Source of the DNA: an uncultured Pelagibacteraceae bacterium
GTDB taxonomy: Bacteria > Pseudomonadota > Alphaproteobacteria > Pelagibacterales > Pelagibacteraceae
DNA: 33,233 nt
Direction of reading: 5' to 3'
Assembly: GCA_902555185.1 (NCBI GenBank)
Contig: CACDSA010000009.1
Location: forward strand, 1-33,233
Shown: positions 1 to 16,433 of the stretch, piece by piece
Position numbering within the stretch: position 1 is the stretch's first letter
Layout of the letters: each line of letters starts with the position of its first letter
Notes under the pieces: generated by a model
The model's input: only the letters and a program-made list of their open reading frames with translations
What the model was told of the DNA's origin: nothing
The model's database searches: none
Position numbers and translations under genes: made by a program

Positions 1-672
1 TAGTGCAGAATTTTCAAAAAATAAAATTTTAGAGTTTTGTTTGTTAATTTCAATTCTAAAAAAAGTATCTACGTTGTTATTGTTGATTAAATTAACTCCC
101 TCTAAAAAACCTTTAAAGATTATTTTTTTTACTTTTAAATTACATTTATTGAATATATTTTTTAAATTATTAAAATCATTTTTATTTATCAAAAAAAAAG
201 ACAATTCATGGGAATAAAGATTTCCAAATAATCCGATAGGCAAATTTTCAATCTTTTTTCCGTCTAGAAGATATTTTGAGTTAAAAATATGAAGAATGTT
301 TTTCTTATTTTCAAATTCATCTATTTTCTGTTTAAGTAAATTAAGAATATATGTGATATTTTCTTTTACTAATTGTGAACCATTTAGTTTTTTATATCCT
401 GAAAAATTAATCAAAGAAGTTTCGAAAAAATCTAAAATAATTACAACTTCTTTAAATACTAAATTAAGTTTTTTTTCTAATAAGAGAATATTTTCCTGGA
501 ATAAGTCATTTACTAAATCAGGATTTGAGATATTATTTTCTGAAAAACCTTGAGAAGGAATTTGATTTTCATATAAAATTTTAAATTCATCATTTTCTAA
601 AATTTTAGTTGCAATAAAATTGCATTCATATTTATTTATTTCTAAGAAAAGAGTTGGTGAATTAATCTTCAT
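1..672 (-). CDS. ftsA: FtsA-like cell division protein, divergent, partial (3' end outside window)
   Basis: FtsA is the actin-fold protein that tethers FtsZ to the membrane. The first 224 codons are visible, from an ATG at 672; the frame stays open to the window edge. Identity rests mainly on position directly after ftsQ, plus a recognisable pattern before the second phosphate loop (IIFKGFLEG, residues about 188-196, against E. coli LIFAGLASS) and ENSAL against its GGAL. The nucleotide motifs are degenerate. Where FtsA has DIG-T/S-T/S-K near the N-terminus, this protein has EINKYE (residues 11-16). Where FtsA has DIGGGT, it has EINKQN (about residues 207-212). Only 3 bp separate it from ftsQ. 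The adenosine motif and the membrane-targeting helix would lie outside the window. Very Asn/Lys/Phe-rich. A different actin-fold or unrelated protein in the ftsA slot cannot be excluded. Confidence 0.75.
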   Translation of the reverse strand, partial: MKINSPTLFLEINKYECNFIATKILENDEFKILYENQIPSQGFSENNISNPDLVNDLFQENILLLEKKLNLVFKEVVIILDFFETSLINFSGYKKLNGSQLVKENITYILNLLKQKIDEFENKKNILHIFNSKYLLDGKKIENLPIGLFGNLYSHELSFFLINKNDFNNLKNIFNKCNLKVKKIIFKGFLEGVNLINNNNVDTFFRIEINKQNSKILFFENSAL

Positions 673-675
673 AAC

Positions 676-1335
676 TTATTTTAAAATAAGTTGATCTTTA
701 ATTCTATAATCAAAAGTTTTATATTTATTAAATTTACCTTGATCTTTAAGGCTCAAAAAGTTTTTTAGACTTATGTCGTAATTCTTTGAAGGTAGTTTTA
801 TGATTTGATTCTTTTTTGTCACCATGTCCCATCGTTGAGTTTCAAATAAATAAAAAGTTTTTATTTCATTTATGGGAAAATCGATAGTTTTCAAACCCTC
901 ATAAAAAATCTTAAAACTTTTTTCTTCACCAAAAACTATTGGCAAATTTTTAAATTCATCTAAATCTCGATAATTTATAAAAGAACCTTTGCTTGTGTAA
1001 AATTTCTTTTCTTTTTTGTTGTGAATTATCGCTATTGGGTTACTTTCAAAAATTGTAAATTTAATTTTAAATGGATAAATTTTTTTAATTTTAAAGTTGT
1101 CTATTAAATCTATTTCACTCAGTTTATTTTCTATTTTTTTAGCATCTAACATTAAAAGATTTGTATTATACAAGAATGATAATTTATCTTTAATCAATCT
1201 TTTTTCTAAAATTTTATTATTTTCAATTATGATTTCTTTTATTGTTATTTTTGAGTTAATATCTGAACTATTTTGAAAGTTATATGTACTTAAGAGTATT
1301 AGTAATAATAAATAAACCAAAATTCTTTTTTTCAT
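676..1335 (-). CDS. ftsQ: Cell division protein FtsQ
   Basis: FtsQ is a bitopic divisome scaffold protein that links FtsB/FtsL to the early division proteins. The 219-aa product has a very short cytoplasmic tail (MKKR), one membrane segment at about residues 5-20, and then a POTRA-like domain (about 28-97; ITIKEIIIENN, later LLMLDAKKIENKL and IYPFKIKFTIFESNP), followed by the FtsQ beta domain. It is shorter than E. coli FtsQ (276 aa), mostly because the cytoplasmic tail is reduced. Its start overlaps the ddl stop by 4 bp (ATGA type), and ftsA follows 3 bp after its stop, so the three genes should be co-translated. Sequence identity to the family is weak; motif pattern and gene order carry the call. 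Confidence 0.88.
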   Translation of the reverse strand: MKKRILVYLLLLILLSTYNFQNSSDINSKITIKEIIIENNKILEKRLIKDKLSFLYNTNLLMLDAKKIENKLSEIDLIDNFKIKKIYPFKIKFTIFESNPIAIIHNKKEKKFYTSKGSFINYRDLDEFKNLPIVFGEEKSFKIFYEGLKTIDFPINEIKTFYLFETQRWDMVTKKNQIIKLPSKNYDISLKNFLSLKDQGKFNKYKTFDYRIKDQLILK

Positions 1336-9122: not shown

Positions 9123-11888
9123 TTAAAAACCTTTAATTATTTTTTTACTAATATTATTTAAACCTGTCGCGTTTGATCCTTTAATCATTAAATAATCATT
9201 ATTAGCTATAATGGTATTTAAAGTAAAATCTATATCTTCATCCCTTTGAAAAATATTACCCCTCTTAGCTTTGTCAATATTCTTATAAGTGATTAGAGTT
9301 TTGCTTCCCTTTATAAACACTTTATCTATATCTGAATTGTTAATAACTTTTGATAAATCTTTATGTAAAGACTCAGACTTTTTTCCTAATTCAAGCATGT
9401 CTCCTAGTATAAGGTATTTTTTAAATTTTTGTTTTTTTATAGAGTTAAAATTTTGAATTGCATTTTTCACAGACAGCGGATTAGCATTATAGCTCTCATC
9501 GATTAAATTAAATTTTTTATTGTATCTCCTGATTTTATATATTTTCCCCCTTCCTTCTGTGAGCTCAAGATTTTTGAAATATTTTGATATTGAGTCTAAA
9601 TTTAAATTAAGAGATTTAAGTACTGCTATGGATGACAATATATTATAGATATTAAGATTGTTATTCTCTAATTTTAGAATCTGGTTTTTGATTTTGATAG
9701 TTAATTTTTTATTGATTTTATTTTTAGAAAAATTAAGTGGATATACATCAGAGTTTTTTGTTAATCCAAAAGATACTAAATTTAAATTACGTTTTTTTGC
9801 TTTCTTCTTTAAAAAATTGAAGAAGATATCATCTCTATTTAAAATAATAGTACCACCTTCCTCTATATTTCTTAATATTTCACTTTTTGCCTCGGCTATA
9901 CCTTTAATATTTTTAAAGTTTTCTATATGAGCTTCACCAATATTTGTAATAATTCCTAAATGTGGTCGTATAATTTTTGTCAAAGCATTGATTTCTCCAG
10001 CATTACTCATGCCAACCTCAAAAACACCAAATTCATGACTGGTTTTTAATTGTGATAAACTTAGAGGAACGCCATAATGATTATTATAGGACTTTGGAGA
10101 ACATAAGGTGTCTCCAAAATTATCTAATAAATCTTTGATCAAGTTTTTTAACGAAGTTTTTCCTGCACTTCCTGTAATAGCAATTATCTTGGAGCGTGTG
10201 TTATCTCTCTTTAATTCTGCGTATTTATTTAAAAATCTGGTTTCATTTTCAACTTTAAGAAACTTATTTTTATATTTTTTTAAATTTTTGGAGGAGATTA
10301 TATATTTTGCACCTTTTTTGAGAGCTTTTGGAACAAAATTAATTCCATTATTTTTTTTTCCTCTAATAGTTAAAAATAAATTACCTTTTTTAATTACCCT
10401 AGAGTCAATAGCAAGACCGTGAAAATTTTTGACTTTAAAATTTTTATTAATAGTTCTAATTATTTTTTTATTTTGTAAGAAAGTTTGATCTTTATTAGAT
10501 ATTCTCTTTAAATTAAGGTTAAATTTTTTTACAATTTGCTTATCAGAAATAAAAATCTTTTTGTATTTATAAATTTGCTCAGATTCATGACCTTTACCAG
10601 CAACTAGTATAATTTCATTGGGCTCTGCATTTAAAATTGAAAGTTTAATTGCTTTTTCTCTATTTCCTATATCAAAACTTTTAGTATTTTTAATATTTTG
10701 TAAAATTTGTTTTCTTATCTTTTGAGGATTTTCATTTCTAGGATTATCGTCTGTTACGTAAATTTTATCACAATGAGTATTAGCTATACTAGCCATTAAA
10801 GGTCTTTTTTTAAAGTCTCTATCTCCCCCACAGCCGAATACTAAAGAGACATTTTTTTTTGGATATCTTAATTTTATTGCTTTTAATGTTTTTTCAAGTG
10901 CATCAGGAGTGTGTGCAAAATCAATGTAAACTTTTATATTATTTTTAAATTTTCTAACTAATTCGAACCTACCGCTTACATCTTTAATATTTTTTAACGA
11001 TTTAAAAATTTTATTTTCGTCAATATTGCAAGCTTTTGCGGCGATAATAGCCATTGAAAGATTTTTCAATTGATAATCATTTGTTTTATTTTTAAGAAAT
11101 TTTTTCAGTTTTGTTCTTGTTGCACTTATATCTACTAATCTAAGATTTCTTTTGTTAGATATGATTTTTAATTTTGGATATTCTTTTAAATCTTTATCTG
11201 TGATAATTAATTTTTTTTCAGATAAAATATTTTTAAACAAATGTAATTTAGCGTTTAGGTACGATTTCATATTTTTATGATAGTCGAGATGATCTTGGCT
11301 AAAATTTGTAAATATACCTGCTTTAAAATTTATATGTTCAACTCTTTTTTGGTAAAGCCCATGACTTGATGCTTCAATTATTACATTTTCTATTTTTCTC
11401 CTTTTTAATTTAAGTAATGTTTTATGTAGTGTTATCGGGTCTGGTGAGGTAATGTTGGAATTGATTATTTTTCCATTAATTTTAATACCTAAAGTACCTA
11501 TTGAAGCTACAGGAATATTGTTAAGTTTTAAAATCTGATAAAATAAATCTGCTACTGAGGTTTTGCCATTTGTACCAGTAACAGCAAAAATATTTTTTGG
11601 TTTTAAGTTATAGAATTTTGAACAAATTTTACTTAAAAGAAATCTTATGTCTGAGGTTTTCTTTATTATTAAATTTTTTTTAGAATATTTACAATTTTTA
11701 GAACATATTATTACTGAAGCACCCTTTTTTACAGCCTCATTAATATAATTTTCTCCATTAAATTTATTTCCTTTGATAGCAAAAAAAATAAAGCCTTTTT
11801 TTACTTTTTTGCTACTTGTTGATAATCCTCTAATCTTGATTTTTTTATCTTTATTCGGGAGATCTTTAATTAATTCTTTCAACAACAT
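9123..11888 (-). CDS. murE-murF: Bifunctional MurE-MurF fusion: UDP-MurNAc-tripeptide synthetase / D-Ala-D-Ala adding enzyme
   Basis: One 921-aa reading frame carries two complete Mur ligases. The MurE half (about 1-460) has SxxxKKG in its UMP-binding domain, P-loop TGTNGKTS (104-111), ITSPDPIT (146-153), EASSHGL (172-178), FTNFSQDHLDYH (193-204), and DNPRNENP (381-388), the signature of meso-diaminopimelate-adding MurE. The MurF half (about 478-921) has AIDSRVIKKGNLF, P-loop TGSAGKTS (572-579), SYNNHYGVPLS, EVGMSNAGEI, NIGEAHIENF, DESYNANP (797-804) and LGDMLELG. The linker (about 456-478) is short and lysine-rich. The start overlaps ftsI by 23 bp. The protein should add meso-DAP and then D-Ala-D-Ala in succession. 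MurE-MurF fusions are known in some proteobacteria. Confidence 0.96.
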   Translation of the reverse strand: MLLKELIKDLPNKDKKIKIRGLSTSSKKVKKGFIFFAIKGNKFNGENYINEAVKKGASVIICSKNCKYSKKNLIIKKTSDIRFLLSKICSKFYNLKPKNIFAVTGTNGKTSVADLFYQILKLNNIPVASIGTLGIKINGKIINSNITSPDPITLHKTLLKLKRRKIENVIIEASSHGLYQKRVEHINFKAGIFTNFSQDHLDYHKNMKSYLNAKLHLFKNILSEKKLIITDKDLKEYPKLKIISNKRNLRLVDISATRTKLKKFLKNKTNDYQLKNLSMAIIAAKACNIDENKIFKSLKNIKDVSGRFELVRKFKNNIKVYIDFAHTPDALEKTLKAIKLRYPKKNVSLVFGCGGDRDFKKRPLMASIANTHCDKIYVTDDNPRNENPQKIRKQILQNIKNTKSFDIGNREKAIKLSILNAEPNEIILVAGKGHESEQIYKYKKIFISDKQIVKKFNLNLKRISNKDQTFLQNKKIIRTINKNFKVKNFHGLAIDSRVIKKGNLFLTIRGKKNNGINFVPKALKKGAKYIISSKNLKKYKNKFLKVENETRFLNKYAELKRDNTRSKIIAITGSAGKTSLKNLIKDLLDNFGDTLCSPKSYNNHYGVPLSLSQLKTSHEFGVFEVGMSNAGEINALTKIIRPHLGIITNIGEAHIENFKNIKGIAEAKSEILRNIEEGGTIILNRDDIFFNFLKKKAKKRNLNLVSFGLTKNSDVYPLNFSKNKINKKLTIKIKNQILKLENNNLNIYNILSSIAVLKSLNLNLDSISKYFKNLELTEGRGKIYKIRRYNKKFNLIDESYNANPLSVKNAIQNFNSIKKQKFKKYLILGDMLELGKKSESLHKDLSKVINNSDIDKVFIKGSKTLITYKNIDKAKRGNIFQRDEDIDFTLNTIIANNDYLMIKGSNATGLNNISKKIIKGF

Positions 11889-14930: not shown

Positions 14931-16433
14931 TTAAAATTTTTGTCTTCTTAGAAATGCAGGAATTTCAAAATCCTCGTCTTCCGTATTTTCATTATCAAAT
15001 AGTTGATCGGATGCTACATCTTCTTCTAGAACTTGAGCTTCAGCTTCTTGGGGGTTTTGCTCTTCAGAAAAAAGCATAGGAGTTCGCTCTTCTTCTAGAG
15101 AGTCATGTGTTGTATTGTTTGTTTTATCGAATGTATTTCCCATTCTTGTTTCGCTGTTTTCCATGTAGGAAGCACTTTCAATAGAAACACCCTCTGGAAT
15201 ATCATCTATAGCAATTGAATTTGTTAATGAATTATCTGCGGTATTCTTTTCTTCATTTTTCTCAAAACTATCAATAAGTGCATTTTGCTCTTCACTGTTT
15301 TTTATTTCGTAGCTTTCATCAAGTTTAAGTGCAGTTGCTCCATCAATAGAATTAACAATATTTTGGTCTAAATTATTTTTTGAAAAAAGATTTTCAGAAA
15401 AATTGTTTCCTCTATTGTTTGAACCATTAACAATGTTTAATACAGGTTTTGATTCTTGAACAACTGTAGATCCTTTTAAAGAAGTTGCTACAATTGAAAC
15501 TCTAATTTTGCCGCTCATATTTTGATCCTTAATAGCTCCAAATATTAGTTCCGCTTCAGGGTCTACTTCAGCTCTGATTTTATTCACTGCCGCATCTACT
15601 TCAAAAAGTGTTAAATCGCTTCCACCAGTAATATTAATTAATAATCCCTTAGCTCCTTGTAAGGTATATTCATCTATTAGTGGATTGTTCAGTGCAAGAT
15701 CTGTTGCAACCATTGCTCTATTTTCACCCTCTGCTTCCCCAGTTCCCATCATTGCTTTGCCGCTAGAACTCATCACTGTTTCCACATCAGCAAAATCCAA
15801 ATTTATCATTCCAGGCCTTACCATAAGATCTGTAATACTTTGAACACCATGTTTTAATACATCGTTTGAAAGACTAAAGGACTCTTCAAATCCAGTAGAC
15901 TCATTTGCAATTTTAAAAAGATTCTGATTTGGTACTACTATTGTTGTATCTAAATGTTTTTTCAATTCCTCTAATCCGCTTGTTGCTCTTCTCATTCTTT
16001 TTGGTCCTTCATAAGCAAAAGGTAATGTTGTAACTCCTACAGTTAGAATATTCATTTCTCTTGCGGCTCTTGCAATTACATGTGACGCTCCAGTGCCTGT
16101 TCCTCCTCCCATACCAGACGCAATAAAAACCATATTGCTCCCTTGAATATAATTTACAATTTCATTCATTGACTCATCTGCGGCTGCTTGCCCAATGTCA
16201 TGTTTTGCTCCTGCACCAAGTCCTTTTGTTAAATTCATTCCAATTTGTATTTTGGCATCAGCTTTGCTCATTTTAAGATCCTGGGCATCAGTATTTACTG
16301 CAACAAACTCTACTCCCTGCATTCCTGCTTCAATCATTGCATTAATTGCATTTCCACCTGCTCCACCAACTCCTATTACCAATATCCTAGGTTTAAGTTC
16401 TCTTAGTTCGCCACCTCCAACATTTATACTCAT
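14931..16433 (-). CDS. ftsZ: Cell division GTPase FtsZ
   Basis: FtsZ is the tubulin-like GTPase that forms the Z-ring. The 500-aa protein has the N-terminal nucleotide loop GVGGAGGNA (21-29), the tubulin signature GMGGGTGTGA (107-116), the T7 synergy loop NLDFADV (211-217) with catalytic acidic residues, and a polymerising C-terminal subdomain to about residue 320. A long acidic, Asn/Glu/Ser-rich linker (about 320-484) follows, then the conserved C-terminal peptide FEIPAFLRRQ, the docking site for FtsA and other partners. This is the canonical full FtsZ, not a tail-less paralogue. The start codon overlaps the mraZ stop by one base (TAATG), so ftsZ is translationally coupled to mraZ. Its position second in the cluster is unusual. 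Confidence 0.98.
   Translation of the reverse strand: MSINVGGGELRELKPRILVIGVGGAGGNAINAMIEAGMQGVEFVAVNTDAQDLKMSKADAKIQIGMNLTKGLGAGAKHDIGQAAADESMNEIVNYIQGSNMVFIASGMGGGTGTGASHVIARAAREMNILTVGVTTLPFAYEGPKRMRRATSGLEELKKHLDTTIVVPNQNLFKIANESTGFEESFSLSNDVLKHGVQSITDLMVRPGMINLDFADVETVMSSSGKAMMGTGEAEGENRAMVATDLALNNPLIDEYTLQGAKGLLINITGGSDLTLFEVDAAVNKIRAEVDPEAELIFGAIKDQNMSGKIRVSIVATSLKGSTVVQESKPVLNIVNGSNNRGNNFSENLFSKNNLDQNIVNSIDGATALKLDESYEIKNSEEQNALIDSFEKNEEKNTADNSLTNSIAIDDIPEGVSIESASYMENSETRMGNTFDKTNNTTHDSLEEERTPMLFSEEQNPQEAEAQVLEEDVASDQLFDNENTEDEDFEIPAFLRRQKF

Follow-up and report, generated by a model that had tools for sequence, protein, structure and literature searches.

The role of ATP in FtsA is unsettled, and the locus described here raises the question of whether an FtsA can take part in division without any nucleotide. 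The window, that is, the whole stretch of DNA that was analysed, is an entire contig of 33,233 nucleotides (G000:C9) from an uncultured bacterium of the Pelagibacteraceae. Its ftsA gene starts at base 672 on the minus strand and leaves the contig at base 1, which makes the first 224 residues readable (1..672, -) and places the C-terminus beyond the contig start. Translation and alignment put EINKYE at the phosphate-1 (P1) loop position (residues 11-16; 625..642, -) and EINKQN at the phosphate-2 (P2) loop position (residues 208-213; 34..51, -). Both loops are free of glycine, as an initial annotation had claimed, and the flanking patterns that it had cited, IIFKGFLEG and ENSAL, are present in the translation; for the second loop its letters and the missing glycine stood, and the position, given as about 207-212, had to be corrected.

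The gene belongs to a minus-strand division and cell wall cluster comprising mraZ, ftsZ, rsmH (mraW), an ftsL-like ORF, ftsI, a 921-aa fused Mur ligase, mraY, murD, ftsW, murG, murC, murB, ddl, ftsQ and ftsA. These names were mostly read from translations; those of ftsQ, ftsZ and the Mur fusion are backed by profile searches, and a Pfam search with the ftsL-like ORF gave no family match. Directly upstream of ftsA lies ftsQ (676..1335, -; POTRA_1, E 5.8e-7; FtsQ_DivIB_C, E 1.8e-4), so that ftsA occupies the place after ftsQ in the dcw cluster that is expected of it. The ftsZ gene (14931..16433, -; TIGR00065, E 2.9e-113) does not adjoin ftsA: it belongs to the beginning of the cluster, about 14 kb away, and in the closed genome G267 the two genes are likewise about 15 kb apart. 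The window ftsZ DNA had no match in E. coli genomes. The 921-aa ORF (9123-11888, -) contains two stretches each of three Mur ligase families and is read as a MurE-MurF fusion.

Profile searches, predicted structures and gene order identify the window gene as an FtsA ortholog. The 224-aa fragment matches the ftsA family TIGR01174 with E 1.9e-15 and 56.8 bits, and E. coli FtsA (7q6d) with E 3.3e-6; the curated TIGR01174 cut-off of 175.85 bits is reached neither by the fragment nor by the full-length proteins of the genus, which score at most 138 bits among the matches listed. A model of the fragment (pLDDT 82.0, pTM 0.75, residues 132-149 poor) has FtsA entries as all of its 11 best structural matches (Z 13.0-13.7, rmsd 3.1-4.4 over 202-212 residues), followed from Z 11.7 by PilM and related folds. 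For the model of a full-length relative, AG-917-K20 (pLDDT 87.7, pTM 0.85), the first 19 Foldseek ranks are all FtsA (best E 1.5e-23), and VIA-align gives FtsA Z 22.1-25.2 with rmsd 5.6-7.1 over 346-361 residues, PilM-type entries Z 14.8-18.1 and Arp7/Arp9 up to 15.8. Thus, both models support the actin/FtsA fold that the initial annotation had presumed. Furthermore, a profile of 79 relatives is collinear with E. coli FtsA (E 4.8e-17), and this alignment places P1 and P2 where they had been claimed, with no intact glycine loop there.

Features outside the loops were retained. The core of the 1C (SHS2) subdomain, residues 88-151 (220..411, -), has a weak Pfam SHS2_FTSA match that lies below the cut-off (E 0.0052), and 1C also holds the most conserved 20-residue block of the 79 relatives (141-160, around NLPIGLFG). 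The residue R300 of E. coli FtsA is present in every SAR11 and canonical row compared. The C-terminal amphipathic helix, which was sought in relatives since the window gene is cut, is present in three relatives of the genus with muH values of 0.64, 0.62 and 0.67, reached by 1, 14 and 7 of 1000 shuffles; the mini and HTCC1062-size forms gave 0.56-0.61 (reached by 53-69 of 1000) and E. coli FtsA gave 0.78 (39 of 1000).

The glycine loss is shared by the relatives. The protein was found in 35 of 61 genomes searched (the own genome and 60 relatives), among them 28 same-genus genomes with full-length frames of 396-405 aa (L002-L029). A further scan of named genomes returned 111 relatives, 80 of which were kept, with titles reading Pelagibacteraceae, Pelagibacterales or Candidatus Pelagibacter (SAR11); all 80 are closer to the window's genus than to the genus g172, and their frames measure 394-401 aa at 79 loci and 376 aa at one, relatives being about 398 aa long. 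The named rows overlap with a second set, 34 rows of the window's genus: 24 of the 80 have an identical counterpart there, and the two sets are not additive. As canonical reference we used the 30 best-scoring FtsA from 192 genomes of the class, a set thus chosen to look canonical. Glycine is absent from the P1 hexamer in 76 of the named rows, from P2 in 70 and from the adenosine motif in 79, and in 15 rows one of the three motifs contains a glycine at some position. At the individual motif positions, the named rows retain the P1 glycine in 2, the three P2 glycines in 10, 0 and 0, and the adenosine glycines in 0 and 0; the genus rows retain them in 1, in 4, 0 and 0, and in 0 and 0, respectively, compared with 30 of 30 canonical rows for the P1 glycine, 30, 25 and 30 for P2 and 30 for both adenosine glycines. 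The loss is real, common to the genus and beyond chance, because the 34 genus and 80 named rows share it, whereas all 30 best-scoring FtsA of the class keep the motifs. The relatives therefore lack the P1, P2 and adenosine motifs by which FtsA is recognised (the window itself extends over P1 and P2 only), and the window's genus has an FtsA ortholog that does not pass its own family's motif test.

Comparison with other SAR11 bacteria places this change in a wider series. All 16 rows from six further genera of the family retain the P1 glycine as well as the first of the P2 glycines; none of the 16 retains the second or third. For full-length FtsA of Pelagibacter sensu stricto (g6), each of the 19 rows has the P1 glycine and the first adenosine glycine, 18 have the first P2 glycine, and the second and third P2 glycines are gone in all; here P1 is kept and the changed P2 loop is conserved, and on this pattern the protein may still bind something. 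The six rows of genus g172 show no P1 glycine, two first P2 glycines and no adenosine glycines. A tree of 30 FtsZ rows groups g172 with the window's genus (SH-aLRT 99) and places g6 as the sister of this clade, in which we infer one complete motif loss. Among the groups compared, joint loss of all three motifs is confined to the window's genus and g172. A family of the same order, f2 (21 rows), has the P1 glycine in one row, no P2 glycines and the first adenosine glycine in 21, probably as a separate loss; its loops (L032-L048) are DIRADK-like at P1 and DIQKNK-like at P2, with the first adenosine glycine kept. In other families of alphaproteobacteria, 22 low-scoring genomes were examined and 14 yielded an FtsA row; the P1 glycine and the first P2 glycine are each present in 13 of these rows, the third P2 glycine in none. 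Partial change of P2 is therefore widespread among atypical FtsA proteins of the alphaproteobacteria. In another alphaproteobacterial family, the FtsA frames of two genomes (about 0.9 Mb each) are 597 and 593 residues long, and their P2 loops read DFGAQF and DLGAQY (L236, L239).

The larger find is that this loss is graded across SAR11 and ends in an FtsA of half the usual size. In the closed g6 genome G235, a 233-aa ORF (mini-FtsA; L249 2060-2758, -; also L250-L279 in Pelagibacter) stands between ftsQ and lpxC. With this protein as the query, 181 of 248 genomes of the family gave a match at E <=0.001. Among the matches listed, uninterrupted frames of 220-245 aa were counted by hand in at least 97 of the 248 genomes, all in g6; at least 26 further g6 genomes match through frames of 370-395 aa, and at least 20 more have pieces at contig ends or with stops. 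Over residues 2-188, which reach approximately to the end of domain 1, an alignment of 18 minis matches full-length g6 FtsA (probability 99.7%, E 5.8e-26); its match to FtsA of the window's genus has a probability of 98.3% (E 1.6e-14). Against the single E. coli FtsA the mini profile is not significant (probability 0.9%, E 0.059), and for this reason the homology of mini-FtsA to FtsA is drawn through the full-length SAR11 forms. Searched against phage records and, at E 0.1, against Pfam, mini-FtsA matched nothing, and solved structures yielded a single chance match (E 0.98).

When the minis of the closed genomes G235, G261, G273 and G284 are set against the full-length FtsA of G267, a single gap of 141 columns takes out P2 and the adenosine motif; the minis then continue through the final 47 residues, which close with GFFE-K/R-F-F. 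The gene lies between ftsQ and lpxC in all five genomes, its neighbours being named from translations. By its alignment, mini-FtsA matches a putative domain 1 (1A and 1C) joined to the C-terminal tail, with domain 2 missing. It is under purifying selection, with a median omega of 0.19 over all 36 pairs of nine close mini genes and values of 0.11-0.24 among the 12 pairs listed. On the FtsZ tree two changes are needed to account for its distribution; as the well-supported branches force only one, mini-FtsA may have a single origin in one loss of domain 2. The closed genome G289 carries its mini gene in two overlapping frames (L313 2263-2962, +), either a true break or an error of the record.

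The FtsA-docking peptide that the initial annotation had noted on FtsZ is indeed kept: the window FtsZ ends in EIPAFLRRQKF, and the tail L/F-EIPAFLR-R/K-Q is present in 29 of 30 rows, among them the window row and those of every one of the 12 mini-FtsA genomes examined. The exception, G037 of family f2, lacks the tail in a match lying 175 bases from a contig end and may simply be cut there; from G417, one of the 30 genomes queried, FtsZ was not obtained. FtsA of T. maritima receives the FtsZ tail on its subdomain 2B; the entry 4a2a is, by its title, a complex of the two. Mini-FtsA is without 2B in genomes that keep the FtsZ tail, and therefore the tail would serve another partner or bind mini-FtsA elsewhere. 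SepF, considered as a replacement anchor for FtsZ, was not seen: 0 of 30 genomes were above the cut-off, and 13 of the 30 had weak short matches (E up to 1).

Other explanations of the glycine-free loops were weighed against these data. One is that the protein, through its altered loops, continues to bind ATP or some other nucleotide, as an acidic residue at P1 in 71 of the 80 named rows and a fold and cleft that are predicted to be intact might suggest. However, all three motifs are gone together, the P2 aspartate survives in 1 of the 80 rows, and the sister genus could do without domain 2 as a whole; moreover, the P1 and P2 positions vary freely (mean entropy percentiles 0.54 and 0.61 in the genus versus 0.27 and 0.18 in the 30 canonical alphaproteobacterial rows), and there is therefore no conserved replacement loop at these places. 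We consider continued nucleotide binding unlikely, and decay of ftsA into a non-functional gene scarcely credible. Decay would agree with the vanished motifs and with the split mini gene of G289, but the genus has 28 full-length frames free of stops, the lengths at the named loci hardly vary, the 1C block is strongly conserved and omega is about 0.19 in 36/36 pairs of close mini genes.

Chance removal of the glycines by AT-driven drift or by sequencing error has in its favour an AT-rich genome, the GC-rich codons of glycine and replacements that are often N, K or E, yet the same loss recurs in 80 separate named records, MreB keeps DIGGGT and TGGG in 7/7 genomes (5 of the window's genus, 2 of Pelagibacter) and the window FtsZ keeps GGGTGTG. 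AT bias as the cause is rejected on account of these MreB and FtsZ motifs, and we give chance removal of either kind next to no weight. Hardly more probable is that the gene encodes an actin-like protein of a different kind and that the true FtsA is to be found at another locus. Scores below the TIGR01174 cut-off are what such a protein would show, but the gene follows ftsQ, FtsA structures come first for both models, and a search for a second FtsA with TIGR01174 in 61 and 248 genomes returned, within the genus and among the matches listed, this gene and frames that resemble MreB and DnaK by their length and model range, with no second canonical FtsA among them. PF14450 (FtsA) had no match in the window's own genome, whose assembly is 78% complete, so that absence there proves little. 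In one MAG, G276, two FtsA genes of unlike type occur; with a contamination estimate of 6, this genome is probably a mixed bin.

We thus regard it as highly probable that the window gene is a true FtsA ortholog turned into a nucleotide-free pseudo-actin, and the interpretation of the initial annotation, a possible non-ATPase actin in the divisome, is supported. From the joint loss of the motifs we infer that ATP is not bound by FtsA of this genus. What is kept, namely the predicted FtsA fold, 1C (SHS2), the place after ftsQ and, in full-length relatives, the C-terminal amphipathic helix, together with the lost motifs and the many relatives that have shed half of the protein, suggests that the protein works as an ATP-free membrane scaffold. 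In such a scaffold, FtsA would be held at the membrane by its tail helix; late divisome proteins would bind in the cleft between 1A and 1C and the FtsZ tail on subdomain 2B, and FtsA could act permanently, with neither binding nor turnover of ATP needed. Many Pelagibacter lineages would have gone a step further by giving up domain 2, and with it the second phosphate loop and the adenosine motif. The motif loss in the window's genus and the loss of domain 2 in Pelagibacter may be viewed as steps towards an ATP-free scaffold, in an order that is likewise a proposal.

With less assurance, we favour extending this reading to a SAR11 divisome that runs without a nucleotide cycle of FtsA. The clade of the window would have lost the ATP site and kept the fold, and FtsA of many Pelagibacter would consist of domain 1 and the membrane tail; as a half-actin, mini-FtsA would recruit divisome partners without the filament contacts of domain 2 or the docking of FtsZ on 2B, and FtsZ would be bound in a new way or by another anchor. 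If this is true, anchoring and divisome signalling (domain 1 and the tail) are separable from nucleotide switching and polymerisation (domain 2). SAR11 bacteria rank with the most abundant cells of the ocean, and cultured strains exist. The division of labour between the domains is in line with PMC7613929, in which FtsN binds the 1A-1C cleft of FtsA and filament contacts lie between IIA and IIB; from these contacts, domain 1 with the tail helix would recruit late divisome proteins, and domain 2 would serve polymers and the docking of FtsZ. For E. coli, PMC10213515 states that ATP promotes FtsA polymers and that residues near the site matter for lipid remodelling, division and function.

The nearest known systems are the solved FtsA structures of E. 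coli, Vibrio, Xenorhabdus, Staphylococcus and Thermotoga (7q6d, 7q6f, 7q6g, 3wqu, 4a2b, 4a2a), which the SAR11 protein resembles in its predicted fold over 346-361 residues, in 1C, in the gene's position after ftsQ and, in relatives, in the C-terminal helix. Unlike these, FtsA of the SAR11 genus is without the P1, P2 and adenosine motifs, and the window ftsZ lies far from ftsA, between mraZ and rsmH. In the open-access literature searched, no paper was found that deals with FtsA of SAR11 or with an FtsA that lacks domain 2. FtsA of Deinococcus radiodurans is described in PMC4281207 as having no ATPase activity and an ATP-dependent polymerisation; compared by description only, the absence of ATPase is like the state proposed for SAR11, but nucleotide is still used (PMC4281207). 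PilM combines an actin fold with a 1C-like subdomain and comes next in the fold lists (Z 14.8-18.1), below FtsA, whereas the window gene lies in the dcw cluster with ftsQ as its neighbour. Arp7 and Arp9 are eukaryotic and are not known to have the 1C subdomain or the membrane helix, and the use of ATP is weak or absent in some Arps. These two proteins are actin folds that serve as structural parts of a complex, and they match the full-length model with Z 13-16.
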